A DNA stretch of 36,755 bases. Origin: Fidelibacterota bacterium (GTDB lineage Bacteria; Fidelibacterota; UBA8477). Below are positions 206 to 21,184 of the stretch, piece after piece; within the stretch, counting starts at the first letter, position 1, and the number at the start of each line of letters is the position of its first letter. The notes under the pieces are model-generated. The model saw only the letters and a program-made list of their open reading frames with translations. It had not been told where the DNA came from and did not search any database. The position numbers and the translations under genes were made by a program. The DNA lies in assembly GCA_021734045.1 (NCBI GenBank), contig JAIPJR010000020.1, forward strand, positions 1-36,755, given 5' to 3'.

Positions 206-1858
206 TCAGCGGAAACGATAAGCACCGTCAATCATGAACTGACTGATGGTTTCGCCGGCCTCCATTTCGGCCGAATAGGAGCCGCTCAGGTAGAAATTTT
301 TCATAAACCGCCAGTAGATGTCCACCTGCGGCGTTTGGCGCAAATGGGCGTCCAGTTGGGTTTTATACATATATCCATAGAGATTGTATCCCAGCGAGAG
401 GGTGAGGTCTGCATTCACATTCCAATCGGCACGGGGTTGGGCGCGTAGTGCCCGAACAAAGAGATTATCGAAATATTGGAGATTCAGATTCATGGGGCCG
501 TTGAGGCCGGGCAGTTGATTATAGCGGAAATTCACACCTGCGATATACATGCGATTTCCCTCGCCATCATTGGTGATATTGCCATTCAATCCGAAGGAAA
601 TTGGTCCGGGCGGCCGAAACATCACCGTCCCGTAAAAACCCTGGCGGAAAGCCTTGTCAAAAAGGGAGTCCGGCGTATCAGACTGGGTGATGAGGAGCTT
701 GATATTCTGGCGTTGGGTGTAACGCGTGACGATGTGAATCCCCCGAACCGGTGTTATGCGTCCGGAGAGGTAAATGGCGGTTAAATTCGCTGTTCCCCGC
801 GTCGTGGTCTCTCCAGACAGATCCAGATCCAGTTCAGCACTCCCATTTAATCTGAGCCAGCGCCATTTACTGAAATCGGAACTGAGGTAAAGGTATTGAC
901 GATCGGTACCACCATTTTTGTTCTCAGTTATTAGTGCGGCTGTGGCACGGTAGTCCCGGCTGGTGGGGGTAAAACTACCTGAGAATCCCCACTTGAAGGA
1001 TTCTGTATCGATTTTCAACGAATCATAGACGGGTACAAATCCCAAAATGGCACCCACTTGCATGGCATGCCACCGATAACTTGCACCGATGCCATCCACC
1101 GTACCCACGCCACCCAACATGGGATGATAAATTCGTCCAAAGGAGCCCCACAAGGGCGAATTATCCTGCTGCCAGGTCACACCGGCACTGTAGAGCCGGG
1201 TTTGGTGCTCAGTGGCGTCCTGGGTGCTGCGGCTCCGTCCCCGTACCAGCACATTGCTGTGGAAACTGGAACCAGCTATGTTGTTTACATTCAGGTTCAG
1301 GTACAGTGAGGGCTGGTTGAAATTGGCCGATTGATTATTAGAGACTGCCACACCCAGATACCGGGTGGAAATTTTTCCAAACCAGCGAGTTTCCCGGGGA
1401 CGAACCTCCACCACATTGCGATTTTTGCCCGGTGTAACCACATTTTTATACCGACCCAGGGTGTCTGGGCTGACGATGACACTGGAATCTGGCGGCAGTA
1501 AAACTGAATCCATTGCTGCTACCACATCAGAAGATTTATCCGGGTAAAATCTGACCTTATCCTTGATCTTCCAGGATTCGAATTCAGCCCGGTTAATGCC
1601 GAAACAGCTGGCGGTTTGGCTGGCAGCCTGGCGCACCACTGCCATACCCTGCTGTTCCTGATCATCCCAGATTTCCACCGTATCGTTGATTGCCAAACCA
1701 TCATCCGTACCCAGATCGATGTAAATCAACTCCTGGCTTTTGTAGGTAATGGTCCCTTCGACAAAATGCTGGCCGTTAAGCATTCCCGTAAGAATGATGA
1801 ATGGGAACAGTATGCGAGAGGTGAGGAAAATTCTCATTTTAAAATGGTGTTTGTTCAT
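206..1858 (-). CDS. Predicted outer-membrane beta-barrel protein with small N-terminal beta domain
   Basis: 550-aa ORF; signal-peptide-like N-terminus (RIFLTSRILFPFIILTGMLNGQ); N-terminal GTITYKSQELIYIDLGTDDGLAINDTVEIW; many alternating amphipathic strands; C-terminus ends in aromatic-rich MIDGAYRFR typical of OM barrels. No CxxCH. Confidence 0.7.
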   Translation of the reverse strand: MNKHHFKMRIFLTSRILFPFIILTGMLNGQHFVEGTITYKSQELIYIDLGTDDGLAINDTVEIWDDQEQQGMAVVRQAASQTASCFGINRAEFESWKIKDKVRFYPDKSSDVVAAMDSVLLPPDSSVIVSPDTLGRYKNVVTPGKNRNVVEVRPRETRWFGKISTRYLGVAVSNNQSANFNQPSLYLNLNVNNIAGSSFHSNVLVRGRSRSTQDATEHQTRLYSAGVTWQQDNSPLWGSFGRIYHPMLGGVGTVDGIGASYRWHAMQVGAILGFVPVYDSLKIDTESFKWGFSGSFTPTSRDYRATAALITENKNGGTDRQYLYLSSDFSKWRWLRLNGSAELDLDLSGETTTRGTANLTAIYLSGRITPVRGIHIVTRYTQRQNIKLLITQSDTPDSLFDKAFRQGFYGTVMFRPPGPISFGLNGNITNDGEGNRMYIAGVNFRYNQLPGLNGPMNLNLQYFDNLFVRALRAQPRADWNVNADLTLSLGYNLYGYMYKTQLDAHLRQTPQVDIYWRFMKNFYLSGSYSAEMEAGETISQFMIDGAYRFR

Positions 1859-1869
1859 TTCAATCCGGA

Positions 1870-2733
1870 TTAATCACCACAGAAATTTTCGTTTCCCCGG
1901 GGATGACAGAAATAGCAATCCTCCGGCTGCACATTAGTGACGGGATAGGTCCGCCCGTTACAATTTTCACAATCATTCCCCTCGCAGTGCTCCGCATTCA
2001 TGCTGGTCACATTATGACAGCCACTGCCAAAGCAGGTGAATTCCTGATAAACACCGGCGGTGGGATGGCAACTGTTACAGCTACTCCATACACCGGCATG
2101 TTCTCCGGAGTTAATCGGGAAAAATTGGTCGTGATTCAGGGCCATAATATCCTGCCAATTGGTGGGACCGTGACACAAAGAGCAATCAGCCTGCCGTGTG
2201 AATCCGGCATGACTGGCTACGGTGAGATCGAAGTCCGCGGCATGACAATTGGCGCAGGCCGGGTCGATGCGGTAATTCCCCTCCCCATGACACGCTTCGC
2301 AGGCGAGTCCCCGATGGGCGCCCACCAATGGAAACAGCGTTTCCATATGCCGATCCGCCCAGTAGCTCATATCCCAGGTGTCGTCACGGTGACACTGTTC
2401 ACAGTTAACCCCGTAGCGTCCACCATGCAGATCGGCATGGCAGCCCGCGCAAGCGGTGGGAGCTCGCTGAAAATCGTGGATTGACCTCACATCGTTCCCC
2501 AGATGACAGCCCCGGCAAGCGGTCTGCCGGTGGGCGCCCGTGAGAACGAAGTTCGTCTGGGTGTCGTGATCGAATGTCATTGGCGCCGCCAACGGTGTCC
2601 AACCAGATGCTGCGTGGCAATCCTGACATTCCCATTTCAAGGTTATTTCCTGCTGGGAAAACAAATTACCCGTGAAGACAAGCAGCATGGTGAGTATCGC
2701 CATGAGGAGAATGTGAGACCGTCTATTCGGCAT
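1870..2733 (-). CDS. Exported decaheme-type c cytochrome (9 CxxCH + 1 CX4CH)
   Basis: Signal peptide MPNRRSHILLMAILTMLLVFTGNLFSQ; CQDCH, CRGCH, CAGCH, CEQCH, CEACH, CANCH, CSLCH, CNSCH, CFGSGCH, CYFCH. The ORF track start (2820) is too long; the ATG at 2733 overlaps the upstream stop by 11 bp (ATGCCGAATAG). Confidence 0.9.
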   Translation of the reverse strand: MPNRRSHILLMAILTMLLVFTGNLFSQQEITLKWECQDCHAASGWTPLAAPMTFDHDTQTNFVLTGAHRQTACRGCHLGNDVRSIHDFQRAPTACAGCHADLHGGRYGVNCEQCHRDDTWDMSYWADRHMETLFPLVGAHRGLACEACHGEGNYRIDPACANCHAADFDLTVASHAGFTRQADCSLCHGPTNWQDIMALNHDQFFPINSGEHAGVWSSCNSCHPTAGVYQEFTCFGSGCHNVTSMNAEHCEGNDCENCNGRTYPVTNVQPEDCYFCHPRGNENFCGD

Positions 2734-5700
2734 TTCGCCAATCCAAATCCCTGGGATCCTGGAAGAACGGCGGACGCCGCAGATCATCATCACCGCCCTC
2801 GCAATCATCTCCACTGCCATTGGGATGACAGAACAGACAATCGGCCGCTGTTACACCGGTACTTGGGTAAGTGAATCCATTACAGCTTTCACATCCGTCC
2901 TCACAGTGTTCCTGATTCATCTCCGCTACACTGTGGCACCCGGCCCCGAAACAGGTGAAGTCCGCATAATTGCTGGTATTGGTATGACAATCACTACATT
3001 CATCCCATTCGTTGCGGTGCTCACCAGAATAAATGGGAAAATACATGCCATCATGGTCAAAATCGGCACCTTCCCATTGGGCGGTGCTATGGCAGCTCTC
3101 GCAGTCCAGGGGAAAATCCGAGTTGGCATGGTTGGGATTGGTGGTGGCGTTGTAATCTGCAAGATGACAATCCGCGTCGGCGCAACTTCTGGGTGTGGGT
3201 GGTGGATCATACCCATCGGCATGACAACTTGTGCAATCCGTATTTTGGTGTGCGCCGGTCAGTGCGAAACCCGTTTGCGTTTCCGAATGGTCAAAGTCAG
3301 CCGGAGACCAGGAATTGGTGGCGTGACACTGGGCGCAATCATCGGGAAAATCAGCATGGGGCGGATCCTGTGCAGCGGCTTTATCCGCGGTATGGCACGG
3401 CATGCAAGTGGTCACATTAGCGTGAGACCAGACCGAAGGTGTCCAGGCAATAGGCGAGTGACAAACTTCGCAATCTTCTGCATTCCAAACCTGGTCAGAA
3501 TGAACCGGTTGACTTGTCTCGCCATAGGTGGATGCGTGACAATTCGACCCAAAACAATCCTGCGAAATGCCAGCCCACTGGTTGTCGATATGACACAAAT
3601 TGCAGTTGGTGAAGGTGTTGTCATAATGTTGGCCAACCAGCGCAAACCCGGTGAGTTCTTCACTGTGGTTAAAGTGGGAGGGTGTCCACTGCACGGTGTT
3701 ATGACAGACATTGCATGTTTCTGGAAAACCTGAGTGATCCGGCGCAGTGGGAATGTCATTGGAATGACACACGGAGCAGCTTTCGGTCAGGTTTTCGTGG
3801 GTGAATATGCTGGGTTCCCAATCCACCGGTGTGTGGCAGAGTGCGCAGTCTTCCGGACGAAAACCTTCTGCCTGGTGGTCCGGATCGTCAGTTTCATTGA
3901 AATCGGTGAGGTGACACTGGGCGTCCCAGCAATTTACCGGTGTACCGGCATAGACATCATTCACATGACAAGCAGTGCAGTCCGTATCCTGGTGCTCACC
4001 AATCAGAGGAAAACCGGTTTCGTCATGGTTAAGAATATCCGGTGACCAGGCGTTGGTGGTATGACAGACCTGACATTGGGTGCTGAAGTTATTGGCTGAA
4101 TGGTCGGGATTATCGGTGTTATCATAATCAAACTGGTGACAAGTCACGCAGGCTGCGGAGGTATTGTTATGCAGGAAAATGCTGGGTTCAAAACCCGATT
4201 CATCGTGACAAATAGTGCAATCCTCCGGTGGATAACCCCGCTCTGCGTGATTGGGGTCGGTCGTAGCGTTGTAATCCTGGGCATGACATTGGGCGGAAAA
4301 GCAGTCGTGTGGTGTGCCAGCCCATTGATTGTTCACATGACAACTGGTGCAGTTGTCGGGTACTAATTCAGCATGGGCACCGACCAGAGGAAAGCCGGTA
4401 TTGGCTTCACTATGATCAAAAAATGCCGGCGTCCATACCTGGGTGGAGTGACAAACCTGGCATTCGGTGCTAAACCCTGACGCCACATGATCCGGTACCG
4501 TGCCGGAACCGGCAGTTTGGGCATAATCGTAAGCGTGACAGTCATTACACCCGCTGGAAATTCCCGTGTGTGTAAAACTGATGGGCGTCCAGCCAAACTC
4601 GGAATGGCATTCGTCGCAATTATCCGGATAATTGCGGATTTCGTGATTCCATTCAGTCGCATCTGCCGATGTATGACAGCCTTCGCAGTTCAGCGGTAAG
4701 TCATATCCGTCGTCATGACAGGCCATACAATCGGTGGTGCGGTGGCGTCCTACTAGCGGAAAAGCTGTGAGATCGTGATCGATGATGAGCGTCGCCCAAC
4801 CAGTTGTAGAATGACATTCAGCACAATTGGTGGGGAATCCGGCATTCAGATGCTCAGGGTCTTCTGCGGTCTCATAGTCTGCCTGATGACAGGTGTAACA
4901 ATCGTTGGTTAAATCCTGAAATACGCCATCACCATGACAATCACCACAGGTTGCGCTTACATGGGCGCCGGTGAGCGGGTAGTCGGTCTGGATATTATGC
5001 TCGTAATTGGTATTGGCCCAGTTAAATACGGTATGGCATTGATCACAGCTAGGACCGAATTCAGCCAATTCATGAGAAAAATCGGGAATTTCGGTCAAAT
5101 CCTCCGCGTGACAACTCACACAAGTGCCGCTCTGGATCTGAAAATTCTGATTCGCATGGCAATTGTCGCAGGTCAGGGGTGCGTGACCCCCCACCAGCGC
5201 AAATCCCAGCAGGTTATGATCGAAAGTAGCCGATTCCCAATCCTGAGTGTTATGACACAAGGAACAATCTTCCGGATAGGCATCCGTGGCGTGTGGTGGG
5301 TCGGTGGTTGTGGCATATTCGGACTGGTGGCAGGCCCAACAATCCTGTGGTGTGCTGGTAGTCTGGCCAGTGTGACAGCTCTGACAATCGGTCGTGGCAT
5401 GAACACCCGTGAGCTCAAATCCGGTCCGATCAAGCGTGTGCTCAAAGGTTGATGTTTCCCAGAAGAGCGCTGAGATGCGATGACATTCAAGACAATTGGT
5501 ACTCAATCCACTGGCCGCATGGGCTGGATCCACCGTCTGCTGCCAGGTGTCCAGATGACAGCCGGCACAGTCCAGCGGTAATCCCTGATATTCATCTCGT
5601 CCCGCTGCGCTGTGGCAAGCATCGCAGGCTACCCGGGAATGGGCTCCCAGCAGCGGGAATCGGGTGGTATTATGGTCAAATGTCTCTGAACGGGGCTGCC

Positions 5701-6067
5701 AGGTTCTTTCTGTATGACAGCGTTGACAATTATCGCCTAACTGTCCCTGGTGGGGATCATTGTGGCAGCTGGCACATTCAGCACGGGCACGGTCAAATTG
5801 GTGAATTGTTGCCAAAGATGTGCCGGTATGGCATTGGATACAATCGGCATTCCGGTGCTGACCCTCCAGCGGAAACAGCGTCTGATTGTGATCAAAGCTA
5901 CTGGGTTGAATAATATCCCACTGGTTGGCAATATGACACACCTGGCAGGGAAGATCGGTTTTGATTTGCAGCGTGTCCTCGTCCTGCAACGCCATTCCCG
6001 GAGAAACAGATAGCATCAAAATCACCAGCCCCGCCATATAGTGACGATGGTTATTCATGGCATTCAT
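2723..6067 (-). CDS. Giant exported multiheme c-type cytochrome (37 CxxCH + 5 CX4CH)
   Basis: 1114 aa with signal peptide (HYMAGLVILMLSVSPGMALQ); dense CxxCH motifs and recurring W..xFDH..T.FPL.G.H....C..CH modules. Confidence 0.95.
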   Translation of the reverse strand: MNAMNNHRHYMAGLVILMLSVSPGMALQDEDTLQIKTDLPCQVCHIANQWDIIQPSSFDHNQTLFPLEGQHRNADCIQCHTGTSLATIHQFDRARAECASCHNDPHQGQLGDNCQRCHTERTWQPRSETFDHNTTRFPLLGAHSRVACDACHSAAGRDEYQGLPLDCAGCHLDTWQQTVDPAHAASGLSTNCLECHRISALFWETSTFEHTLDRTGFELTGVHATTDCQSCHTGQTTSTPQDCWACHQSEYATTTDPPHATDAYPEDCSLCHNTQDWESATFDHNLLGFALVGGHAPLTCDNCHANQNFQIQSGTCVSCHAEDLTEIPDFSHELAEFGPSCDQCHTVFNWANTNYEHNIQTDYPLTGAHVSATCGDCHGDGVFQDLTNDCYTCHQADYETAEDPEHLNAGFPTNCAECHSTTGWATLIIDHDLTAFPLVGRHRTTDCMACHDDGYDLPLNCEGCHTSADATEWNHEIRNYPDNCDECHSEFGWTPISFTHTGISSGCNDCHAYDYAQTAGSGTVPDHVASGFSTECQVCHSTQVWTPAFFDHSEANTGFPLVGAHAELVPDNCTSCHVNNQWAGTPHDCFSAQCHAQDYNATTDPNHAERGYPPEDCTICHDESGFEPSIFLHNNTSAACVTCHQFDYDNTDNPDHSANNFSTQCQVCHTTNAWSPDILNHDETGFPLIGEHQDTDCTACHVNDVYAGTPVNCWDAQCHLTDFNETDDPDHQAEGFRPEDCALCHTPVDWEPSIFTHENLTESCSVCHSNDIPTAPDHSGFPETCNVCHNTVQWTPSHFNHSEELTGFALVGQHYDNTFTNCNLCHIDNQWAGISQDCFGSNCHASTYGETSQPVHSDQVWNAEDCEVCHSPIAWTPSVWSHANVTTCMPCHTADKAAAQDPPHADFPDDCAQCHATNSWSPADFDHSETQTGFALTGAHQNTDCTSCHADGYDPPPTPRSCADADCHLADYNATTNPNHANSDFPLDCESCHSTAQWEGADFDHDGMYFPIYSGEHRNEWDECSDCHTNTSNYADFTCFGAGCHSVAEMNQEHCEDGCESCNGFTYPSTGVTAADCLFCHPNGSGDDCEGGDDDLRRPPFFQDPRDLDWRNAE
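3350..4837 (-). repeat. Tandem ~120-129-aa pentaheme super-repeats within the giant cytochrome (residues ~411-906, four copies, plus a partial fifth after)
   Basis: Copies begin GFPTNCAECH, GFSTECQVCH, FSTQCQVCH, FPETCNVCH (then FPDDCAQCH); each carries five heme motifs, the third being CX4CH in copies 2-4. Confidence 0.8.
4838..5506 (-). repeat. Tandem ~73-76-aa triheme repeats within the giant cytochrome (residues ~188-410, three copies)
   Basis: Copies begin LSTNCLECH, YPEDCSLCH, FGPSCDQCH; each has three CxxCH. Confidence 0.75.
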
Positions 6068-6108
6068 GATTCAAACCTCATCTGACTATCCGTATGCATT
6101 CCAGCTCC

Positions 6109-7806
6109 TCAACGCCCCAATTTGTGGCAATCCTGACAATCATGCGCGATGGGGGTGAAGCGCACTGTTGCCCGCCCCATTCCATCACGTCGTTCCCGAA
6201 AGTGGCATTTCTCACAGACTACATTTTCATGCTGACCCGACAGCGGAAACCGGGTAAGCTCGTCATGGTTAAAATCATTAATCTGCCAATTCTCAAAACC
6301 GTGGCATCTTTGACAGGGATTCACGCCATCCAGAAGTTTGAATTGTCCATCATGGATGTCGGAATGACAGCTTTCACAATCTGTGGAAATCCCTGTGTAT
6401 TGCACAACTGCTCCTTGCGTCGTATGGCATTCCCCGCAGGTAATTCGCCCATGCCGTCCCATCAATGGGAAGTTTGTTGAAGCGTGATCAAAAATGAGTT
6501 TGCGCCAGCCATCGGTGGTATGACACGACTCACACCAATTTATGGCTTTCTCATAACGACTGAACTGTGTGCCGTGAGGGTTCTCGTGACAGGTCTGGCA
6601 GGTGATTGTCTCCCAGAAATAGAGCGATTTGCCCTCATCATTCTGATGACACTGAATACAGGGCAATGCCAGATGAGCACCGGTTAGCGGAAAGCGCGTC
6701 TCTTGATGCTGTTGCAGTGTGTATCGCGGTGGGGCAAACCCCAATTCCGAATGACATTCTTCGCACTGGAATCCCTGTACCCGGTTCTGAAACGCTCCGG
6801 CATGATAGTCCTCATGACAATCAGTGCAAAATTCAAATTGCAGTGGTCTGGCATTATCCCCCGATTGGTGGCACGCAAGACACGCCACGGTTTGGTGTTT
6901 CCCCACCAGCGGGAAGCGGGTTTTACTATGATCCACCACACCGGCTTTGGGTGATTTGAACGAATCCATGGTATGACATTGAAGACAGTTGTCGTCGAAT
7001 TGACCATGGTGATAATCCTCGTGGCAGTCCAGACACGAATCAAATGTCAATCCCCCAAATTTCTGCACCTGTTTACCTTCAACCGGTGGCTGTTTCCAGG
7101 TATGGCACTGTTCACAATCAACACTCTGATGAGCGCCTACCAACGGATATTGCGTTTGGGTGGAGTGATTGAATGTGGTTCGAACGGCTGCCCAATCAGC
7201 TGTGCTATGACAATTGTCGCAGGTTTGATTTGGAAACTCGCCGCGATGAACATCGGTGTGACAGTCACCGCATGCGGTGGGTAATCCAAGAAATGTGGAG
7301 GACAGAAAATCTGCGTCGGGATGTTGTTCAGCATATTCCAGAATGTCTGGTATATTTACATGTTTGGACTGATGGCACGCCTCGCATGCTAAGGATTCGT
7401 GTTTGCCGGTGAGCACATAACCGGCGAGGTCGTGATCAAAGGACTCCTGATTCGGTTCCCACTGAATTAGCTGATAGTTTTTTCCAGCGTGCTCCAGGTG
7501 GCATTTGCTACAGGATTTGTCCTCCAGCAAGCCATGATAGCCTTGTTTATCATCGATCCTGGCCTGAATCGGGGTATGACATTCCAAACAATTGGGCGCC
7601 AGATCATTGGAGCCGAAGGTGTGACAGGAAAGACATTTGGTAATGCCCTCCAGATGGGCGTGCGGTGTGGACAATGGACCCGGAGAGAATTGTGCCAGAG
7701 TGGATGTTGTGAACAGTGCCATCAACACCAAAACCTTCACTACAGGAAGGAGAGGAATGAACCGTCGAATATTAGTCCTGAAATTCTGCATACGATTGTC
7801 CATCAT
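6109..7806 (-). CDS. Exported 20-heme c-type cytochrome
   Basis: 565 aa; signal peptide (VVKVLVLMALFTTSTLAQ); 20 CxxCH motifs counted by hand; same FDH/FPLxGxH module as the neighbouring cytochromes. Confidence 0.93.
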   Translation of the reverse strand: MMDNRMQNFRTNIRRFIPLLPVVKVLVLMALFTTSTLAQFSPGPLSTPHAHLEGITKCLSCHTFGSNDLAPNCLECHTPIQARIDDKQGYHGLLEDKSCSKCHLEHAGKNYQLIQWEPNQESFDHDLAGYVLTGKHESLACEACHQSKHVNIPDILEYAEQHPDADFLSSTFLGLPTACGDCHTDVHRGEFPNQTCDNCHSTADWAAVRTTFNHSTQTQYPLVGAHQSVDCEQCHTWKQPPVEGKQVQKFGGLTFDSCLDCHEDYHHGQFDDNCLQCHTMDSFKSPKAGVVDHSKTRFPLVGKHQTVACLACHQSGDNARPLQFEFCTDCHEDYHAGAFQNRVQGFQCEECHSELGFAPPRYTLQQHQETRFPLTGAHLALPCIQCHQNDEGKSLYFWETITCQTCHENPHGTQFSRYEKAINWCESCHTTDGWRKLIFDHASTNFPLMGRHGRITCGECHTTQGAVVQYTGISTDCESCHSDIHDGQFKLLDGVNPCQRCHGFENWQINDFNHDELTRFPLSGQHENVVCEKCHFRERRDGMGRATVRFTPIAHDCQDCHKLGR

Positions 7807-7995
7807 AAGAGGACCCTGTAAATCCGGCGCCCTGCGGATTCTATACAGACGATTCAGAAGGGCTTTTTTAAACCTGTGGGGTAGGGTTTTTTTAAACCTG
7901 CTGATTGTTGCGTGAGCAGGATGGACAGGCCAGCCTGCCCTTGCAACACAAAATGAATGCTCCCCCAGTTTACAAATACCTGTCCCGGGTAGCGA

Positions 7996-8682
7996 TTACA
8001 GCTGTTTCAGGCTTTCCGCAGCCCGCTGGGATTCGGGATCGTCGGGATATTGACTCACCAGCGTTTCCCAAACTTTGCGAGCTTCTTCCCGGTTGCCCAT
8101 TGAGGCCAGGATGGCGCCTTTGTTGTACATCGCTTCCGTATCGTCTGAATTTATTCCCAGCATTTGATCGCACGCGTCAAGTGCGGTTTGAAATTTTCCC
8201 AACTGAAAGGCACTATGCATAACCTGAGTCCAGGCTTCCGGTGAGGCGGTATTTGCCCGGGCGGCCCCACTGTAATATCCCAATGCCTGCTCAAAACGCC
8301 CGATCTGGAAGTAGAGGTCACCCAGTCGCATAAAGGCCGGCGCATCGGTAGAATCTTTCGCCACCCGCTCTTTTAATGCTGCTAACTCCCGCATAATACC
8401 GCCCATTGCACCCTGACTGGGATCACCACTGGCCTGGCCACCCATACCCTGCATATTCATTCCTGCATGAGGATCTGTGGCTGTCTCAGGTCCGGAGGAG
8501 ACACTGTAAATAATGATGGCGGCTGCTACAACCACCAGCGCGCTTACAATGTAGAGCCATTGCTGTCTTTTAGGCTGTGATTGTCTGGTAGGTGCATCAC
8601 CACCCACCGGAGCGCCACAGCTCACACAGAATTTTGCGTTTTGCGGTATGTCGGTTCCACATTCGGTACATTTCATGCTCAT
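7996..8682 (-). CDS. Zinc-ribbon, single-TM, TPR-repeat protein (NrfG/CcmI-like TPR region)
   Basis: 228 aa; MSMKCTECGTDIPQNAKFCVSCGAPVG zinc ribbon; TM WLYIVSALVVVAAAIIIYSV; C-terminal TPRs (RLGDLYFQIGRFEQALGYYSGA..., MYNKGAILASMGNREEARKVWETLV). Confidence 0.75.
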   Translation of the reverse strand: MSMKCTECGTDIPQNAKFCVSCGAPVGGDAPTRQSQPKRQQWLYIVSALVVVAAAIIIYSVSSGPETATDPHAGMNMQGMGGQASGDPSQGAMGGIMRELAALKERVAKDSTDAPAFMRLGDLYFQIGRFEQALGYYSGAARANTASPEAWTQVMHSAFQLGKFQTALDACDQMLGINSDDTEAMYNKGAILASMGNREEARKVWETLVSQYPDDPESQRAAESLKQL

Positions 8683-8729
8683 TTATCTGTCCCTTCGTCG
8701 TGTTACGGGTTCACCATTGATTATTTGAA

Positions 8730-10031
8730 TCAGGCAGCAACCTGCCCGAACTGAATACCTATTTCTTTCAGGAGCGGAAAAGGTACGAGACCACCAGCGA
8801 ATACAAATACATAATCATTGTCTAATGTGATGGTATCATCATGCTGTGTTAAAATGACCTTGTTATCCTGAATCTCCTGCACATTGGATTCGAAAATAAC
8901 ATGAACGAGCTGATCTTTCACCAATTTATCCAGCCGCTCCTGATTTTTGGACTTGAGGCGGAAAAATTCGGATTTACGGTAGGATAGGGTCACCCGGTTG
9001 CCCGGTTGCTGAGCCAGACCAATGGCCGCTTCAATGGCTGAATCACCTCCACCGACCACCAGCAGGTCCATATTCTGGTAACTCTCCGTATCTATCAATT
9101 TATACATCACCTTTGGGCGCTCTTCACCGGGGACCCCCAGTTTCCGCGGCGTACCCCGCCGACCCAGTGCCAGGACAACCCGGCCGGCTGTAAAGTCACC
9201 CTTATTGGTGTGGACCGTAAAATAGTCTCCATCCACTGTTACACCCGTCATGCGATGATGGCTCTTGTACTGTAAATTCTTTTGCCGGAGGATTTCCTGC
9301 CAGATTTCCAATAACTCTTCTTTGCTGTACTCAAGGTTTTTAAGCGTTCCATAATGGGGTAGAGTCACGGGCTGAACCATCACCAATTTACGACGCGGAT
9401 ATTGTAAAATTGTCCCACCCGGTTCGTCCTGATCCAGCATGACCACATTAAGATCGGTGTCTTCCAGTTCCAGCGCAGTGCTCATTCCTGCGGGTCCGGC
9501 ACCCACCACAATCACATCAAAATCCACATCCTCACGCTGAACATAGCCCCGTTTTATCGCCTGTCCCACGCTGGACCCCTGGTTGATAGCGTTTCGTATC
9601 AACGCCAGGCCGCCCAACTCCCCCACGATGTAGATGCCCGGGATATTAGACTCGTAATTCTCTTTCAGGTAGGGGATATCCTGACGGGACGAAATATCAC
9701 CCAATCCCACCTCGATGCCACCCACCGGGCAGTTGTCTTTACACAATTCATGTCCCACGCATTTGGCACCGTTAATCAAAACCGCTTTTCCGGAGATGAG
9801 CCCTAAGACTTCACCCTCCGGGCAGACCCGTACGCAAATGCCACATCCAATGCAGGTGGACAGGTCAATAATCGGATGCTGCATTAAGGCTTTATCCAAT
9901 CCTTTGGATTGTGCTTCTTCCAGTTTTTGTTGGGTACGCTCGTCCCGCCTTCTCCAGTTCCGCAAATAGGGTATGACAAAAACCAAAATGATGGCAATGC
10001 CCAGAACCCAGGAAAGTGTCGTTTCTGTCAT
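8730..10031 (-). CDS. Membrane-anchored 2x[4Fe-4S] ferredoxin-domain FAD/NAD(P)-dependent oxidoreductase (thioredoxin-reductase-like fold)
   Basis: 433 aa; N-terminal TM; CIGCGICVRVCP and CVGHELCKDNCP; FAD motif VIVVGAGPAGMSTALELE; NAD(P) motif LLVVGGGDSAIEAAIGLA; C-terminal DYVFVFAGGLVPF. Confidence 0.9.
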   Translation of the reverse strand: MTETTLSWVLGIAIILVFVIPYLRNWRRRDERTQQKLEEAQSKGLDKALMQHPIIDLSTCIGCGICVRVCPEGEVLGLISGKAVLINGAKCVGHELCKDNCPVGGIEVGLGDISSRQDIPYLKENYESNIPGIYIVGELGGLALIRNAINQGSSVGQAIKRGYVQREDVDFDVIVVGAGPAGMSTALELEDTDLNVVMLDQDEPGGTILQYPRRKLVMVQPVTLPHYGTLKNLEYSKEELLEIWQEILRQKNLQYKSHHRMTGVTVDGDYFTVHTNKGDFTAGRVVLALGRRGTPRKLGVPGEERPKVMYKLIDTESYQNMDLLVVGGGDSAIEAAIGLAQQPGNRVTLSYRKSEFFRLKSKNQERLDKLVKDQLVHVIFESNVQEIQDNKVILTQHDDTITLDNDYVFVFAGGLVPFPLLKEIGIQFGQVAA

Positions 10032-10032
10032 C

Positions 10033-10911
10033 TTAAAAAATCCAGGTGTAGCCGAAACTGACCGTTATGGCGACATGCAGCACAAGTATTACCAGAACGG
10101 TATAGGCAAAGGGCTTGTGAATCACATGCCACCAGTGAAAAATTTTATGAATCGTGTCAAAAAAAGCGATTCGCTGCATAATGAGCCGCTGGCGGGCAAT
10201 AGCGCGGGTCAGATAGCGTACCTCCCGCGTAGGCAATCCATATTTGTGCTGAAAGTATCGCGCCAACCGGCGTGCCTGGAAACGACGAATCACATCTTCG
10301 AAGAGAATCCGGAACAGATTAAGGATGCCCCAGCGCTCAATCTCTTTTGGAGTGCTAAAGGCTACCAGTTGCTGAATGTCATCCCCTTTTAATCCGAATT
10401 CAAACTCCAGACGTCGTAGTGTCTCCGCACGATCCAGGTGAATTTGTTTTAATGTCAATTCTTCACCTGATTTCCGGCGGGGAATGTGACCATAGAGATA
10501 GCGACCCACGAAGCCACTCAGAGCAACGGCCACCATGGAAAAATAGCCTACGCTAATTAATCCCTGGAATTTGAATGCTGAGTGCAGGGTGGCCAAAATT
10601 GGGGCTGAAATACCCATGAAGATATGATATCGCAGCCAGATACTTAGTTTACCCCAGCTACGCATGAACCGAAGCCGCTTCCGAAATACGTACAAAAACA
10701 GTCCCAGAAAAAATATACCTGCCAAAATGCCCAGTCCGTGTCCCACCAGACCGGCTGACCCGTAGGTCGCGTGGGCGGCCTCATTCTCCTGAGCCCGGCG
10801 TATTTCCGGAGGGAGTTGGTAATATGACCACCCATCGTACACTGTGGATGCGACAATGACCACCATTCCCAAAATGAGCAGGGTCATCATGATTCTGTGG
10901 AAAGTTTTCAT
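10033..10911 (-). CDS. Integral membrane cytochrome-b-like / ferric-reductase-like transmembrane protein
   Basis: Multiple TM segments with paired conserved His (GLVGHGLGILAG, LRYHIFMGISAPILATLHSAF, FHWWHVIHKPFAYTVLVILVLHVAI). ATG at 10911 preferred over the upstream TTG at 10920. Only 1 bp from the downstream oxidoreductase. Confidence 0.75.
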   Translation of the reverse strand: MKTFHRIMMTLLILGMVVIVASTVYDGWSYYQLPPEIRRAQENEAAHATYGSAGLVGHGLGILAGIFFLGLFLYVFRKRLRFMRSWGKLSIWLRYHIFMGISAPILATLHSAFKFQGLISVGYFSMVAVALSGFVGRYLYGHIPRRKSGEELTLKQIHLDRAETLRRLEFEFGLKGDDIQQLVAFSTPKEIERWGILNLFRILFEDVIRRFQARRLARYFQHKYGLPTREVRYLTRAIARQRLIMQRIAFFDTIHKIFHWWHVIHKPFAYTVLVILVLHVAITVSFGYTWIF

Positions 10912-10919
10912 TGGCAACA

Positions 10920-10948
10920 ATTATAGGAATCAAATGCACGCTGGACAA
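10920..10948 (-). promoter_or_regulatory. Sigma70-like promoter for the cytochrome/electron-conduit locus
   Basis: Minus strand TTGTCC - 17 nt - TATAAT; the -10 ends 8 nt before the ATG at 10911. Confidence 0.5.
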
Positions 10949-13396: not shown

Positions 13397-14794
13397 ATGA
13401 ATCCTTGGGATCTTCAAGCAAATCTGAAATCGGTGATACTGGATTTGATGTACCTGAGCAGTTTTATCCTGATTGGTACCTGGCTGCGTCGTTATGTGAA
13501 ATTTTTCCAGAAATTTCTCATCCCCAATAATCTAATCGGTGGTTTCATCGCGTTGCTGGTGAGCACACAAGGTTTTGGTTGGATTGATTTACCATCGGAG
13601 CGTCTGGGGCTGTATGTATATCATTTCTTAGCGCTCACATTCATTGCGTTGGGATTGCGACAGCAGAAAAGCGGCTGGGGTAAAGGTCCGCTGAGTAAAG
13701 CTCTGGGAACGCTATCCACCTATTTGTTACAAGCCCTTATCGGATTGGGTGTGGCTTTTGTGCTGTTCTACACCATCATGCCGGATTTATTCATCGGCAT
13801 GGGCCTGCTGTTGCCACTGGGCTTCGGAATGGGACCCGGACTGGCATACGCCATGGGAAAGTCCTGGGAGCAATGGGGCTTTGTGGGTGGCGGGCAGGTA
13901 GGGCTTACTTTTGCCGCAATTGGGTACCTCTATGCCTTTTTTGTCGGAATGGCGATTATTCAATGGGGTATTCGTAACGGTAAAGCCGCGCTGATTAAAA
14001 GTACGGATCACATCACTTCAGATATGCGGACCGGTGTGAATAAAAGCGGAGATTATCCCATTGCCGGTCATCTGACGTTGAGCACGGAGGCTATTGAACC
14101 CATGGCGTTTCAACTGGGCCTCATGGGTTTTTGTTACCTGATTACCTATTGGATTGTAGATGTGATGGCCAGCGGACTGGCATCAGCCGGGTTGAATGAT
14201 TTCGTGGCGACGCTGTGGTCTTTTCACTTTGTGGTAGCGCTACTAGTGGCCTTGGTTGTCCGGAAGGTCATGGATATGACGGGCCGGAGTTATGTGATTG
14301 ACGCCGGTCTGATGACTCGCGCAATGGGTGTCTTTTTGGATTACCTGGTGGTTGGCGCGGTGGCCGCTATCAGCTTTGTGATTGTCGGGAAGTACTGGCT
14401 GCCAATTCTAATCATGTCATTACTGACCGGCCCTGCCACTTACGCCTTACTGAAATGGATTTCCTGGCGTGCCTTTGACAACTTCCATTTTGAGCGTTTC
14501 GTAGAAATTTTCGGAGAAATGACCGGCACCATTAATTCTGCGCTGGTATTGCTGCGGGTGACCGACCCGGAATTCAAAACACCAGTGGCGGAAGACGCGG
14601 TTTACGGCAGTGGCATCGCCTTGTTCATCGGGCTGCCTTTGCTGGTCGCACTGAACATTCCGTTCGCATTTTTTAAAGGGGAACTCATCGGATATTGGGT
14701 TACGGCCGGCGTGCTTGTGGGATATTGGATTTTACTCACCATCGTGTGGCGCGCCATCGGATATATCCATTTTCGACGACAGACGACAAATTGA
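13397..14794 (+). CDS. Sodium:glutamate symporter (GltS)-like membrane transporter
   Basis: 465 aa, many TM segments; IPNNLIGGFIALL, GGGQVGLTFAAIGYLYAFFVGMAI, glycine-rich reentrant-like segments characteristic of GltS. Confidence 0.75.
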   Translation: MNPWDLQANLKSVILDLMYLSSFILIGTWLRRYVKFFQKFLIPNNLIGGFIALLVSTQGFGWIDLPSERLGLYVYHFLALTFIALGLRQQKSGWGKGPLSKALGTLSTYLLQALIGLGVAFVLFYTIMPDLFIGMGLLLPLGFGMGPGLAYAMGKSWEQWGFVGGGQVGLTFAAIGYLYAFFVGMAIIQWGIRNGKAALIKSTDHITSDMRTGVNKSGDYPIAGHLTLSTEAIEPMAFQLGLMGFCYLITYWIVDVMASGLASAGLNDFVATLWSFHFVVALLVALVVRKVMDMTGRSYVIDAGLMTRAMGVFLDYLVVGAVAAISFVIVGKYWLPILIMSLLTGPATYALLKWISWRAFDNFHFERFVEIFGEMTGTINSALVLLRVTDPEFKTPVAEDAVYGSGIALFIGLPLLVALNIPFAFFKGELIGYWVTAGVLVGYWILLTIVWRAIGYIHFRRQTTN

Positions 14795-15639: not shown

Positions 15640-15852
15640 AGTAATCGGAATATAGGTCTTTTCCCGGAAAGGTGAATGAAAATTCTCACTGCCCGGTGAT
15701 GTTGAATTTCGTGGTGAAAAAGTCGAGCAGAAAATTGCCTCGGATTCAGGTGCGCCAATGAGATTTCACTGGTATTTAAAAAAATTCTTACCTAATATTA
15801 TTCGTTAACGAGAATAACGCATCAACGAATGATCGTGATCCGGAGGGATGAG

Positions 15853-17082
15853 ATGTCGGCATTTAATCGTATATCAATCGTCTTAGTATTTCTTTTATTG
15901 ACCAACCGGGTATGGAGCCAGGAAACCAAGACATTTGAGTTAAAAACCGGCGAAAAGATCATGGGAACAGTGGTGGGAACCGATGAAGAAACCGGTATTC
16001 TGACGGTAGAAACAGCGTATGGTTTGGTCACCATTTCCCCTGAAACACTGGTAGTCGACTCGGTGGCGGTTTTGCTAAAAAGTGGTGAAATCCTGCGCGG
16101 CAGTTTGTTGCACCAGAATCCGGAGCGAATGATCATCCAATCGAAATTGGGTGTGTTGACCCTGGATCGTCAGAACATTGAGCGGGTGGACTACGAAAAT
16201 GTATCGCCTAACCAGCCTGCAGTTAAGCAATTAGGTGGGGCTTCTGAAAAATTCAGTTTCGCAAATGAGCGCCAGATTGATGTGTTCTACGATCCCACCG
16301 GGAATGTCCTGGGGCAGAATGTGGTTTATGTAAGCGGGCTGAGCTGGGGGGTTGGTGCCACGGAAAAATTGCAGATTACCAGCCGATGGGCGGATTACAT
16401 CCTGGGTGATTTTAATTTCCGGCCGAAAGTTCAGATTCATAAATCGGGAAATGTGGATTTGGAGCGATCACTGGCCATCGGTTTTGATATGCACGCCCGC
16501 TGGGATTCACGCAGGTACAAGTGGCATGAATATCAGATGACGGCGCGAGAAATTACCACACCAGGCGTTACGACCGGCAGAACAAAAACTGTTTATTATT
16601 ATGATTTTGCACCAGTGGGTACGGATATCGTCCTGCCTAATCCAATCTACTATTATACTACCGGTGATATTTACAATAACGATGTGGTCCATGTGGATCC
16701 CCCGCGTACCCGGTATTATGAGGTTTTTGCAGCCTACACGCTTTCGAAAATGCGTTCTGAAATGAAAGGTCATGCCGCCCATACCATCGGTGTTTCCATT
16801 GGCAAATCGGAAACCGCACCTGACCTTATGCCACGGATTTATTATGCCGTGGGATTGGATGTTCGACCCAACCTCATCGTAAATTTTGAGGTGTTCTGGG
16901 ATGAATATTACCAGGAATCCTGGTGGGATGATGAGTATGGCGAAAACAGGATTGTGACCACCGAACCAGAAAAACCGTTCCCGTTACATTTCGATCTGGG
17001 ATTTATTCTGGCCACAGATGATAATTTTCGAGTTGGTCTCCATTACCAACCGCTTTGGCTTGCTATTTACCTGAAATACTGA
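15853..17082 (+). CDS. Exported hypothetical protein with two N-terminal Sm-like beta repeats and a beta-rich (OM barrel-like) C-terminus
   Basis: Signal peptide MSAFNRISIVLVFLLLTNRVWSQ; GEKIMGTVVGTDEETGILTVETAYGLVTI and GEILRGSLLHQNPERMIIQSKLGVLTL repeats; GGAGG Shine-Dalgarno upstream. Confidence 0.6.
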   Translation: MSAFNRISIVLVFLLLTNRVWSQETKTFELKTGEKIMGTVVGTDEETGILTVETAYGLVTISPETLVVDSVAVLLKSGEILRGSLLHQNPERMIIQSKLGVLTLDRQNIERVDYENVSPNQPAVKQLGGASEKFSFANERQIDVFYDPTGNVLGQNVVYVSGLSWGVGATEKLQITSRWADYILGDFNFRPKVQIHKSGNVDLERSLAIGFDMHARWDSRRYKWHEYQMTAREITTPGVTTGRTKTVYYYDFAPVGTDIVLPNPIYYYTTGDIYNNDVVHVDPPRTRYYEVFAAYTLSKMRSEMKGHAAHTIGVSIGKSETAPDLMPRIYYAVGLDVRPNLIVNFEVFWDEYYQESWWDDEYGENRIVTTEPEKPFPLHFDLGFILATDDNFRVGLHYQPLWLAIYLKY

Positions 17083-17153: not shown

Positions 17154-18194
17154 ATGCCTGAACCCGTTAATCACGATTATCGTCACCGCAAATATTTGTC
17201 TGCCATTGAAGCGGCGCTCTTTTTAGGAGTGCGTGTACAGGATATTCACGCCTGGGTGAAATCGGGTCAGCTCCCGACCTACACAGCGGCCAGCGGGCAG
17301 CAGCGCTTCAAGCTTACCGATCTGCAAAAATTCCGTGGCGGAAATGACACCGCCCTCTTCCAGCAATCAGAAACATCCCTGATAACCGATCAACTTCACT
17401 ATCACTGCGCCGACGCACGGAGAATGCAGACCATTCCGGATCATTCGGTCCATCTCATGGTTACATCCCCGCCATATTTTGATGCCAAAATGTATTCGGA
17501 AAGCGCAAATGCCGATCTGGGAAATATTCATGACCTGGACCGGTGGTTTGTAGAGATGAATGCAGTTTGGCGGGAGGTGCTGCGGGTGCTTGCACCGGGC
17601 CGGAAAGCATTTGTGAATATCATGAATCTGCCGGTTCGAAATGGAAACGGTGGTTATCGCACCCTGAATTTGGTAGGGCGTACCATCGACGAAATGGAGA
17701 GCCTGGGGTTTGTCTTCAAACGGGATATTGTGTGGCATAAAACCAATGGGGTTCGCGCCCATTTTGGTACCTACCCGAATCCCGGTGGCATTCTCATCAA
17801 TAACATGCACGAATTTATTCTGGAGTTTGATACGCCCGGCGGACGCGGAGCCAAATATGCCCATGTGAGTGTGGAAGATCGCCAGGCATCGAAACTGGAT
17901 AAGGACTTCTGGTTGTCACTGAAAAATTCGGACGTGTGGCTCATGAAGCCGGAAAAAAGTGGCGGCAGACGCACCCATGCGGCACCATTTCCATTGGAGC
18001 TGCCTGCGCGACTGATCCGGGCATTCAGCTATCAGAATGAATGGGTGCTGGACCCGTTTGCCGGGAGCGGCACGACACTGCTGGCAGCGCTGAATTGGCA
18101 TCGTAAAGCCATTGGGTATGAGGTGAATCCGGCCATCGCCGCCGAAGCGGTGAAACGGCTGCAGGGGGTTTTGAAAGCTGTGGACGAACCATGA
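17154..18194 (+). CDS. DNA methyltransferase (beta-class, N4-C/N6-A type) with N-terminal excisionase/MerR-like HTH
   Basis: Motif IV VTSPPYFDAKMYS followed later by motif I VLDPFAGSGTTLLAAL; N-terminal YLSAIEAALFLGVRVQDIHAWVKSGQLPTYTAASGQQRFKLTDLQKF. Confidence 0.88.
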   Translation: MPEPVNHDYRHRKYLSAIEAALFLGVRVQDIHAWVKSGQLPTYTAASGQQRFKLTDLQKFRGGNDTALFQQSETSLITDQLHYHCADARRMQTIPDHSVHLMVTSPPYFDAKMYSESANADLGNIHDLDRWFVEMNAVWREVLRVLAPGRKAFVNIMNLPVRNGNGGYRTLNLVGRTIDEMESLGFVFKRDIVWHKTNGVRAHFGTYPNPGGILINNMHEFILEFDTPGGRGAKYAHVSVEDRQASKLDKDFWLSLKNSDVWLMKPEKSGGRRTHAAPFPLELPARLIRAFSYQNEWVLDPFAGSGTTLLAALNWHRKAIGYEVNPAIAAEAVKRLQGVLKAVDEP

Positions 18195-21184
18195 CAAAGT
18201 TAGCCCGGGTCGCTGCACTTTTTTTATTGGGATTATTGCTATTGGCCGGTTGTGGTACCCGGGATCCGGAATCTCCGGCGAAGCCTTTCAAATTACCGCA
18301 AGGGTCTGAACGGGAGGTGGTTTATACCGATAAGGGGGATGCCTTTTGGATGACCCGTACCGGCGGATTCCAGGACAGTCCCTGGCATGGGTTACGTGTT
18401 GCCAAACGCCCCTATTTCCGGGATTTCATTATTTTTGCAAACGGGAATCTTCTGGATCGCCAGCAGGCGGTGGTGCGTGTTACGCCAGATCGTTTAATCC
18501 GCTATTACCCTGCGCAAAAAGTTACCGTTACCTGGACGCTATTGGACACAAGTCGGGCTCTGGCAGTCACCATCGAAGCACAGCGGGAGACTGAATTTCA
18601 AATTGTTCCGATTCTGGAGGGGGGCAATACCCTATCCGATCTGCGACCGGTCATCTCCACACCCATGGCGAGGATGTATGAGATTAAGGCTTACACAAAT
18701 CTGCCCGCAAGTTATCCCTATGTGAAACTGGCATTCTCCGAATCATTCACTACCGGGGACAGCGTGAAAAAGCTTCCGGGAAGAGCCGGCGGTATCGTGG
18801 TGGGGAATTTTCATTTCCCGTCTTCTACACATCTTACCGTCTGGGTGCAGGTGGCGGATCGTCCGTCTGCATTCGATTTGCCTGACGAGAGGACCGTGGC
18901 TGCGCGGACATTCCAGCGGAAGAATCGCATCCAGAGACGTCTGCAGCGTACAGCTGTCCAAACGAATAATCCCGAGTTGGATCAGGCAATTGCCTGGGCT
19001 CATGCTTCACTGGATGCTTTACTTATGAATCAGATGGGACTCGGGATTTACGCCGGGCTGCCGTGGTTTGATGAATTCTGGGGTCGGGATCTGTTCATCA
19101 CCTTTCCAGGAGCTGTGCTGGTAAGTGGAGATTTCCAGTCGGCCAGGCAGATTTTATCGGAATTCGCCCGCTATCAGGATCAACAGCCTGCCAGCCCAAC
19201 CTACGGACGAATTCCGAATCGTGCCCAGCCTACAGACATTATTTATAACACAACAGATGGAACACCCTGGTTCATTCGGGAAATGTGGGATTATTACCGC
19301 TACACCGGTGACGAGGATTTTTTAATTCAAATGTATCCCGTGATCAAGCGAGCGGCTCTGGGGGGAATGAAGAATTGGCTGGATGAAAACGGTTTACTGT
19401 CCCACGAGGATGCCGATACCTGGATGGATGCTCGCGGTCCGGAGGGCCCCTGGTCACCACGGGGCGATCGTGCGGTGGAGATTCAGCAGCTTTGGTTGAT
19501 GCAACTGGCGATTACCAGCCGGGTGGCAAGGTTGACCGGCGATGACGATTTTGCGATGCGGGTTGAAGGTATCAGCGAGCGGGCGTATGAAGCCTATGAA
19601 AAACTTTTTCGTGATCCGGAATCTGCTCGGTTATACGACCATATTAATGCCGATGGTACACCGGATCTGCAAATCCGCCCAAATGCTCTTCTAGTACCAC
19701 CCTTATTGCCGAGTCAAACATTTGATTGGAGGACCTTTCGGGAGACAGCACCTGAGTTGGTCACGTCTTCGGGAATATTATCATTGGCGCAATCGGATCC
19801 GAATTTTCATCCCTTCCACCAGGCGCCAGGTCTGTATGTGAAAGATGCTGCTTACCATAATGGTATTATCTGGATGTGGAATGCGGGGCCCTGGATGTCG
19901 GCGGCACTGGACTTTGGACAATTTGAAATGGCTGATAGATTGTTTACCAGCCTGACAAATCAACTGTTACACCGTGGCGCTGTGGGTACCATCGCAGAAG
20001 TCTCTGATGCCTGGCCGCAAGCAGACGGGGAAGTCCGCTTGTCTGGTACCATTTCCCAAGCCTGGAGTCTGGGTGAGTATTTGCGGGTTTTCTACCAGGA
20101 TATCCTGGGATTTCGTCCCGGATTTAATGCCGAGGGGCAACCGGTCATTACGCTCCGCCCACGACTCCTCAAGGGGCTGAATGATGTGTCATTCACCGCG
20201 TATGCTTTTCAGGATTCATTTAAGGTGGCGTATTCACATGAGGCGGATGCTGAAATTATCCATGTGGAACGCCAGAATGACCGGGCGATTCAACTGGCGG
20301 TGAATTTATTGGCAGATGGAATGATATACCAAATTTCCGGTGATTGGCATTCGCGGGAGCTGTCGGTTCGTTTTGAGAAAAACATGCGGCAGTGGACGGT
20401 GCCGGACGCATTCAGCGACCAGGTGATAACTGCTACTGAATTTCAATATGCTGATTCCAGCGTGGCCATTTGTAGCGTAGATACAACATTACCTGTGTCG
20501 GTTCTGGCGGGACCCGGTCACCGTCTGCTAAATCAGCTGGAGGTTGTTCCGACGGCTGATACAGGAAAATTACTTGTGGATGAGATGGATCCTGTGGGCG
20601 ACGATGGTGGTCCCCGCGGGGTTTTTACCTATCCTCGAAACCAGCAATTTCAGGCCGGGATTGCCGATATCACCCGCATGCGAATTTGGGAAAAGGAGCA
20701 GTTACTTACCTTTGAGCTCACCTTTCATAATCTGGTAGACCCGGGCTGGCATCCTGAATACGGGTATCAGTTAACCTATGCTACTATTGGTCTGGATGCT
20801 GGAGCCGGTGGACTGCAGCAGGTAGGAAAGAATGCTGGTTGTGAATTCCGCGGTGCATTCAAGGCGAATCGTGTCCTTTATATAAGTGGTGGTATCCAGA
20901 TTGTGGATGGGAGCGGTACACTTTTGGCTGAATACATGCCACGGGATGCGTCGGGTGCAATCGGGAATGTGGAAGAAAAAACGGTGCGGTTTTGCATTCC
21001 CCGGTCGTTATTTCCGCATAATCTGAGTCGTGCAAAATGGCAGGTGGCGGTGGGATTGCAAGATGATCATGGGGGCGCCGGATTAGGGGATTTTCGTGCG
21101 GTGGAGACTTTGGCCGCCGAATGGTCTGGGGGCGGTAAAAAAGATGCGTCGGACGGCAATGTGTACGATTGGCTGATTCCCTGA
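18191..21184 (+). CDS. Secreted lipoprotein: amylo-alpha-1,6-glucosidase / glycogen-debranching-like catalytic domain plus C-terminal glucodextranase-type domain
   Basis: Lipobox LLLLAGC; GDE-like core LPWFDEFWGRDLFITFPGAVLVSG, DADTWMDARGPEGPWSPRGDRAVEIQQLW, YHNGIIWMWNAGPWMSAAL; C-terminal DPVGDDGGPRGVFTYPRNQQFQAGIADITRMRIWE resembles the glucodextranase C-terminal domain. Confidence 0.82.
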   Translation: MTKLARVAALFLLGLLLLAGCGTRDPESPAKPFKLPQGSEREVVYTDKGDAFWMTRTGGFQDSPWHGLRVAKRPYFRDFIIFANGNLLDRQQAVVRVTPDRLIRYYPAQKVTVTWTLLDTSRALAVTIEAQRETEFQIVPILEGGNTLSDLRPVISTPMARMYEIKAYTNLPASYPYVKLAFSESFTTGDSVKKLPGRAGGIVVGNFHFPSSTHLTVWVQVADRPSAFDLPDERTVAARTFQRKNRIQRRLQRTAVQTNNPELDQAIAWAHASLDALLMNQMGLGIYAGLPWFDEFWGRDLFITFPGAVLVSGDFQSARQILSEFARYQDQQPASPTYGRIPNRAQPTDIIYNTTDGTPWFIREMWDYYRYTGDEDFLIQMYPVIKRAALGGMKNWLDENGLLSHEDADTWMDARGPEGPWSPRGDRAVEIQQLWLMQLAITSRVARLTGDDDFAMRVEGISERAYEAYEKLFRDPESARLYDHINADGTPDLQIRPNALLVPPLLPSQTFDWRTFRETAPELVTSSGILSLAQSDPNFHPFHQAPGLYVKDAAYHNGIIWMWNAGPWMSAALDFGQFEMADRLFTSLTNQLLHRGAVGTIAEVSDAWPQADGEVRLSGTISQAWSLGEYLRVFYQDILGFRPGFNAEGQPVITLRPRLLKGLNDVSFTAYAFQDSFKVAYSHEADAEIIHVERQNDRAIQLAVNLLADGMIYQISGDWHSRELSVRFEKNMRQWTVPDAFSDQVITATEFQYADSSVAICSVDTTLPVSVLAGPGHRLLNQLEVVPTADTGKLLVDEMDPVGDDGGPRGVFTYPRNQQFQAGIADITRMRIWEKEQLLTFELTFHNLVDPGWHPEYGYQLTYATIGLDAGAGGLQQVGKNAGCEFRGAFKANRVLYISGGIQIVDGSGTLLAEYMPRDASGAIGNVEEKTVRFCIPRSLFPHNLSRAKWQVAVGLQDDHGGAGLGDFRAVETLAAEWSGGGKKDASDGNVYDWLIP

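Follow-up and report, generated by a model that had tools for sequence, protein, structure and literature searches.

A conserved multiheme cytochrome and outer-membrane barrel gene set in Fidelibacterota and other phyla as a probable NAD(P)H-linked electron conduit

We propose that seven neighbouring genes in the MAG of an uncultured, marine-type Fidelibacterota (Marinimicrobia) bacterium probably encode a single trans-envelope electron conduit leading from NAD(P)H to the cell exterior, although no biochemistry, expression data or culture stands behind this proposal. The window analysed here, 36,755 nucleotides long, is an entire contig of this genome (2.54 Mb, 92% complete), whose named relatives are Candidatus Marinimicrobia/Neomarinimicrobiota; Fidelibacterota is the name used in our tree labels. 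On our best reading, the locus is a porin-cytochrome conduit of independent evolutionary origin, equipped with an inner-membrane module of its own that is linked to NAD(P)H and may bypass quinones. A more far-reaching version is plausible but held only tentatively: that this is an independently evolved class of conduits, found in at least eight phyla, which carries electrons from NADPH to the exterior without quinones by way of a distinctive flavoprotein in which one Fe-S motif includes a His, a new cytochrome b with two hemes, a periplasmic ruler cytochrome of 20 hemes and a barrel of 22 strands.

All seven collinear minus-strand genes of the original prediction were recovered by ORF calling (206-10911 or 10920, Table 1), with junctions of the sizes it had given (from the barrel side to the cytochrome b: 11 bp, an 11-bp overlap, 41, 189, 47 and 1 bp). 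The upper end of its span, 206-10948, lies about 30 bp beyond the coding part. Its count of 72 heme motifs is reached only if six CX4CH motifs are added to the 66 of the CXXCH form. For c1, a conserved start at 2733, which yields the overlap with c2, is preferred to that of the longest ORF at 2820. Sec-like signals are present on all four of c1, c2, c3 and the barrel protein, and CcmF/CcmC-type cytochrome c assembly proteins, the maturation genes for which the host was to be checked, are encoded in the genome.

Table 1. Genes of the putative conduit, with positions in the window
Feature	Position	Strand	Evidence or remark
Outer-membrane beta-barrel, 550 aa	206..1858	-	Signal peptide, AF2 model, Foldseek
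c1, 10-heme cytochrome (9 CXXCH + 1 CX4CH)	1870..2733	-	Sec signal; adjoins barrel gene
c2, 42-motif multiheme cytochrome (37 CXXCH + 5 CX4CH)	2723..6067	-	Sec signal
c3, predicted 20-heme c7-type polymer cytochrome (20 CXXCH)	6109..7806	-	Sec signal
TPR protein, 228 aa, zinc ribbon and single TM	7996..8682	-	Zn_Ribbon_1 and TPR matches
FeS/FAD/NAD(P) oxidoreductase, 433 aa	8730..10031	-	Domain and motif evidence
b-type cytochrome, 292 aa (ATG 10911) or 295 aa (TTG 10920)	10033..10911 or 10920	-	

Relatives of the gene set were found well beyond the window's genus. A flavoprotein search was positive in 19 of 60 relatives, and a genome scan with a cytochrome b profile returned 80 loci from Fidelibacterota, Calditrichota, KSB1, Zixibacteria, Krumholzibacteriota, Latescibacterota, Eisenbacteria and Acidobacteriota, as well as one record labelled Fibrobacter; judged from these homologues, the set is spread over at least eight phyla, most of them uncultured. 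In wide regions on contigs that were long enough, the order is cytochrome b, FAD flavoprotein, (TPR), 20-heme cytochrome, c2, 10-heme cytochrome and barrel. Three gene orders were distinguished overall (cytb-FAD-c3-c2-c1-barrel, FAD-cytb-c3-c2-barrel and cytb-c3-c2-(c1)-barrel-FAD), so that the flavoprotein gene shifts between first, second and last position, yet is retained. Several phyla lack c1 and have c2 alone instead.

The operon census was confined to the 39 cytochrome b loci that have 8 kb or more of downstream sequence. A 14-23-heme cytochrome was found in 37 of these, the barrel in 37 and the FAD flavoprotein in 36; two multiheme cytochromes occur together with the barrel in 36, and 35 have the flavoprotein in addition and are complete, a pattern that extends over Fidelibacterota, Calditrichota, Zixibacteria, KSB1 and others. 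Among 245 Fidelibacterota genomes the barrel is encoded in 36, the cytochrome b in 37 and both in 32 (hypergeometric P value = 1.8e-30, inflated by the relatedness of the MAGs). In 23 of the 32 the two genes share a contig at a distance of 6.5-9.8 kb, and in the remaining nine they are split between contigs of draft MAGs. Co-occurrence of the barrel and the cytochromes, whose absence would have refuted the original prediction, is borne out. The distance matrices of four of the protein families correlate pairwise (r 0.67-0.92), and Fidelibacterota form one side of a branch among the labelled entries of the cytochrome b tree, but two of these entries (L059 and L029) stand beside the other phyla; support from the short search was moderate. 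Based on gene content and order, we conclude that the set without the TPR protein is a conserved operon. The TPR protein was considered as a core component and rejected, as it is present only in the window's genus (L020, L021) and is a genus-level addition. One Calditrichota locus (L095) has a cytochrome b homologue beside an 11-motif cytochrome, without the barrel or the 20-heme protein, possibly a paralogous use of the cytochrome b module.

The inner module is, as had been predicted, a b-type cytochrome with an FeS-flavoprotein rather than CymA/NapC. Five TM helices are predicted for the cytochrome b, along with a long helical insert (about residues 145-253) that the charge distribution places in the cytoplasm. 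Seven His are conserved in 66 homologues, and two His pairs, 99/113 and 268/282, each with a spacing of 14, lie in helices 92-113 and 254-288; from these motifs the pairs are expected to carry two b hemes. The AF2 model has a pLDDT of 90.9; Foldseek found no match for it at E<=0.001, and quinol use can therefore not be excluded. A functional analogue is the membrane unit of NADPH oxidases and ferric reductases, which likewise has two His pairs about 14 apart on two helices and an adjoining cytoplasmic FAD/NAD(P)H module, although the FAD domain here is YpdA-like and accompanied by Fe-S clusters; the ferric reductase/NOX membrane domain itself gave no Foldseek match, and Ferric_reduct matched only weakly, in 26 of the 66 homologues.

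The flavoprotein begins with a TM anchor followed by basic residues, which places its catalytic part in the cytoplasm. Its FAD and NAD(P) domains resemble those of YpdA and thioredoxin reductase but lack the redox-active CxxC; they match YpdA (bacillithiol disulfide reductase Bdr, 7a7b) at E 3.7e-47, while the scores lie far under the family cut-off for YpdA (162.5 against 339.9 bits) and under that for thioredoxin reductase (75 against 343 bits), and the TM anchor and Fe-S clusters are additions relative to Bdr. Binding of FAD and NADPH is read from motifs, with the SYRK...R stretch after GGGDSA suggesting, by inference, NADPH. The only seven Cys all fall in two Fe-S motifs (residues 60-101). 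In the second of these, CxxHxxCxxxCP, H94 takes the place where the second Cys would be expected and is kept in 40 of 41 homologues, whereas C63 of the first motif is lost in 11 of 41; a His-ligated Fe-S cluster is a prediction only.

The strongest rival as regards the electron donor is a quinol-linked porin-cytochrome system, in which menaquinol would be oxidised by the cytochrome b and the flavoprotein would have a side role. Quinol is what the known systems CymA, ImcH and CbcL use (PMC12133095), the cytochrome b homologues have weak Pfam matches to cytochrome b561 and DUF4405 alongside Ferric_reduct, and the flavoprotein is missing near a few loci (L080, L101). However, the operon includes the flavoprotein in 36 of the 39 census loci in spite of its shifting position, the flavoprotein evolves with the set (r 0.67-0.75), and we consider quinol feeding unlikely, though still a serious contender.

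In c2, 37 CXXCH motifs are observed where about 0.5 would be expected from its Cys and His content, and heme-motif spacings repeat with a period of three (lag-3 spacing correlation 0.52-0.68), which together exclude a chance origin of the motifs. Triheme repeats of c7 type with bis-His ligation are indicated by PF14522 matches, by TIGR04257 in relatives, by the dodecaheme GSU1996 (3ov0) as top match, by the lag-3 spacing and by the paired His; on this sequence evidence we classify the cytochromes as c7-type triheme polymers. GSU1996 is the closest solved structure in profile searches with c3 (E 2.5e-11) and c1 (E 2.5e-7), with MtrA (6r2q_A) ranking lower for c3 (8.4e-7); a single-sequence phmmer search of c3 against the PDB gave no match, and the profile search did better. 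GSU1996 has 12 hemes compared with the conserved 20 of c3 and, to our knowledge, does not belong to a barrel operon. The prediction that the modules differ in design from MtrA agrees with scores of 71 and 49 bits, far under the 192-bit cut-off of TIGR03508 (MtrA/DmsE-type). With its 10 hemes c1 was also tried as an MtrA orthologue; this was rejected, given its c7-like character, the cap that it has in common with c2 and GSU1996 as top solved match.

Across 48 homologues of c3, the conserved His other than the 20 proximal ones number exactly 20 (85-100%), and across 20 homologues of c1 there are 10 distal His for 10 proximal ones, likewise conserved. Conservation of both ligands at every heme leaves no substrate site, and as far as sequences can tell c3 and c1 are wires, not enzymes. 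Among complete c3 homologues, 42 carry 20 hemes, 10 carry 17, 2 carry 14 and 1 carries 23, with three odd counts, so that gains and losses are mostly by threes; the 17-heme form would fit the deletion of a single stretch that holds three hemes and three His (positions 481-535, each 85% conserved). Homologues of c2, on the other hand, vary in length and carry anywhere from 10 to 67 hemes. The fixed number in c3 against this free variation suggests that c3 is a measurable ruler of periplasm length. The largest c2 homologue, with 67 CXXCH in 1716 aa, adjoins the same barrel family (L110, 6407-11557). Alignment further revealed a common C-terminal cap in c1 and c2 that carries a CX4CH motif, and close homologues of c1 have its CX4CH in the identical position. 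Since c2 adjoins the barrel in loci without c1, this cap is the likeliest barrel-docking part, an inference without a docking model.

Modelling as a non-porin would have spoken against the conduit, but the AF2 model (44 homologues, pLDDT 86.0) is an outer-membrane beta-barrel of 22 strands (158-549). It is preceded by a signal peptide, a small periplasmic beta domain (33-104), FlgT_C-like in 24 homologues, and a low-confidence linker. The Foldseek matches of the model were porins and ushers, with E values down to 1e-8 but modest TM-scores, for which reason we call the protein a barrel on the strength of its model and claim no specific porin family. The last residue of most homologues is aromatic or Leu, and identity to the window's copy is only 21-25% outside the genus. 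No useful porin family was found in Pfam or NCBIfam: MtrB_PioB (PF11854) matched none of the 44 homologues at E 0.1 and nothing in 40 genomes including the host, and the barrel profile hit no PDB chain at E<=1, although the PDB includes the Mtr complex (6r2q).

Taken together, we infer the following path for the NAD(P)H-linked conduit. Cytoplasmic NAD(P)H would reduce the FAD of the membrane-anchored flavoprotein, whose Fe-S clusters may split the electron pair into single electrons, to be received by the cytochrome b at its heme on the cytoplasmic side; its other b heme would then reduce c3 at the periplasmic face, and c3 would act as a wire spanning the periplasm. From there electrons could cross the outer membrane through c1 (or c2), which its C-terminal cap would hold in or on the barrel, and c2 with its many triheme modules may distribute or store them on the outside, where Fe(III)/Mn(IV) minerals, humics or partner cells would take them up. 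The placement of any one cytochrome in the barrel or outside has no lipobox or docking model behind it. The originally predicted pathway, NAD(P)H to exterior or the reverse, is supported in its gene set, barrel, cytochromes and inner module but not in its TPR protein, while direction, substrate and the choice between NADPH and NADH are still inference. As the path has no ion pump and moves negative charge outward, it would dissipate rather than build proton-motive force; we infer a redox-balancing sink, not an energy-coupling site.

Multiheme conduits are reversible, and flow through this one could be too. The strongest rival on direction is the same conduit in reverse, with electrons passing from Fe(II), minerals or partner cells through c2/c1, c3 and the cytochrome b to NAD(P)H or a cbb3-type oxidase. 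A heme-copper oxidase, of cbb3 type when read by eye, is indeed encoded by the host, and isolate names suggest that several relatives came from vent dives or from waters that are anoxic or have redox gradients. Nevertheless, the partner conserved on the cytoplasmic side is a flavoprotein of NAD(P) type, and the formation of NAD(P)H from Fe(II) runs uphill in an operon without an energy-input module, which leaves reverse flow rather improbable. The idea that the locus is the electron-transfer part of a catalytic complex (nitrite, sulfur, selenite or DMSO reductase), an outcome that would have refuted the prediction, draws only on weak NCBIfam matches to DmsE, ExtN/ExtO and HmcA with scores far under the cut-offs, and was rejected as very improbable given the complete bis-His ligation in both c3 and c1 and the absence of any molybdoenzyme or other catalytic gene seen travelling with the set.

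The outward conduit that we favour follows the design principle of MtrCAB, PioAB and MtoAB, namely a barrel, periplasmic and putative outer multiheme cytochromes and an inner-membrane donor. It meets the broad porin-cytochrome criterion in that an outer-membrane beta-barrel is encoded and conserved together with multiheme cytochromes, electron exchange with the outside being inferred. The design is that of porin-cytochrome conduits, yet the set does not pass the tests for MtrB and MtrA membership. The barrel has 22 modelled strands against the 26 of MtrB (PMC12133095), the cytochromes are c7-type polymers with 10, 20 or as many as 67 hemes, and a cytochrome b and FeS-flavoprotein stand where MtrCAB has CymA. 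The Pcc/Ext conduits of Geobacter type, reported also in Ignavibacteria (PMC7399161), similarly combine a porin and large multiheme cytochromes in one cluster; the present set differs in having a flavoprotein/cytochrome b module of its own. Against the NCBIfam Ext models, in libraries for which no OmbB or ExtB/E porin model was confirmed, barrel relatives gave no meaningful match, only ExtJ at 0.07. Mtr, Omc and Pcc likewise have no relationship to one another according to PMC12133095, and in our searches the parts of this set are not detectably related to known bacterial electron conduits.

We found no published description of this gene set, in a literature coverage whose incompleteness limits any claim of novelty; papers on Caldithrix abyssi, vents, bioanodes and Effluviviacota, as far as their accessible parts go, deal with other systems. 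From a conserved operon of this kind one would expect Fidelibacterota, Calditrichota, Zixibacteria and further uncultured groups to exchange electrons with minerals or partners. Its protein profiles allow the conduit to be found elsewhere, and quinone-independent electron export from NAD(P)H becomes directly testable.

Further genes were noted in the host and the window. The cbb3-type oxidase genes lie on another host contig (L131, C29, 443-5290), where a 733-aa ORF resembles a CcoN-CcoO fusion. A separate cluster (L130, C5, 828-5751) encodes a 4-motif cytochrome, an Fe-S protein with a twin-arginine-like start, a membrane protein and 13- and 12-motif cytochromes; by eye it resembles a periplasmic complex linked to quinol, possibly a second feeder. 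Within the window, an HdrD-like protein with a NarI-like membrane part (21842-23845; CCG, Nitrate_red_gam and Fer4), possibly an ETF-quinone type oxidoreductase, adjoins a flavin reductase. Two long ORFs (13397-14794, 465 aa, and 15829-17082, 417 aa) have no Pfam match, and a DNA methylase gene (17154-18194; N6_N4_Mtase with HTH) directly precedes that of a 997-aa amylo-alpha-1,6-glucosidase with a glucodextranase C-terminal module (18191-21184).
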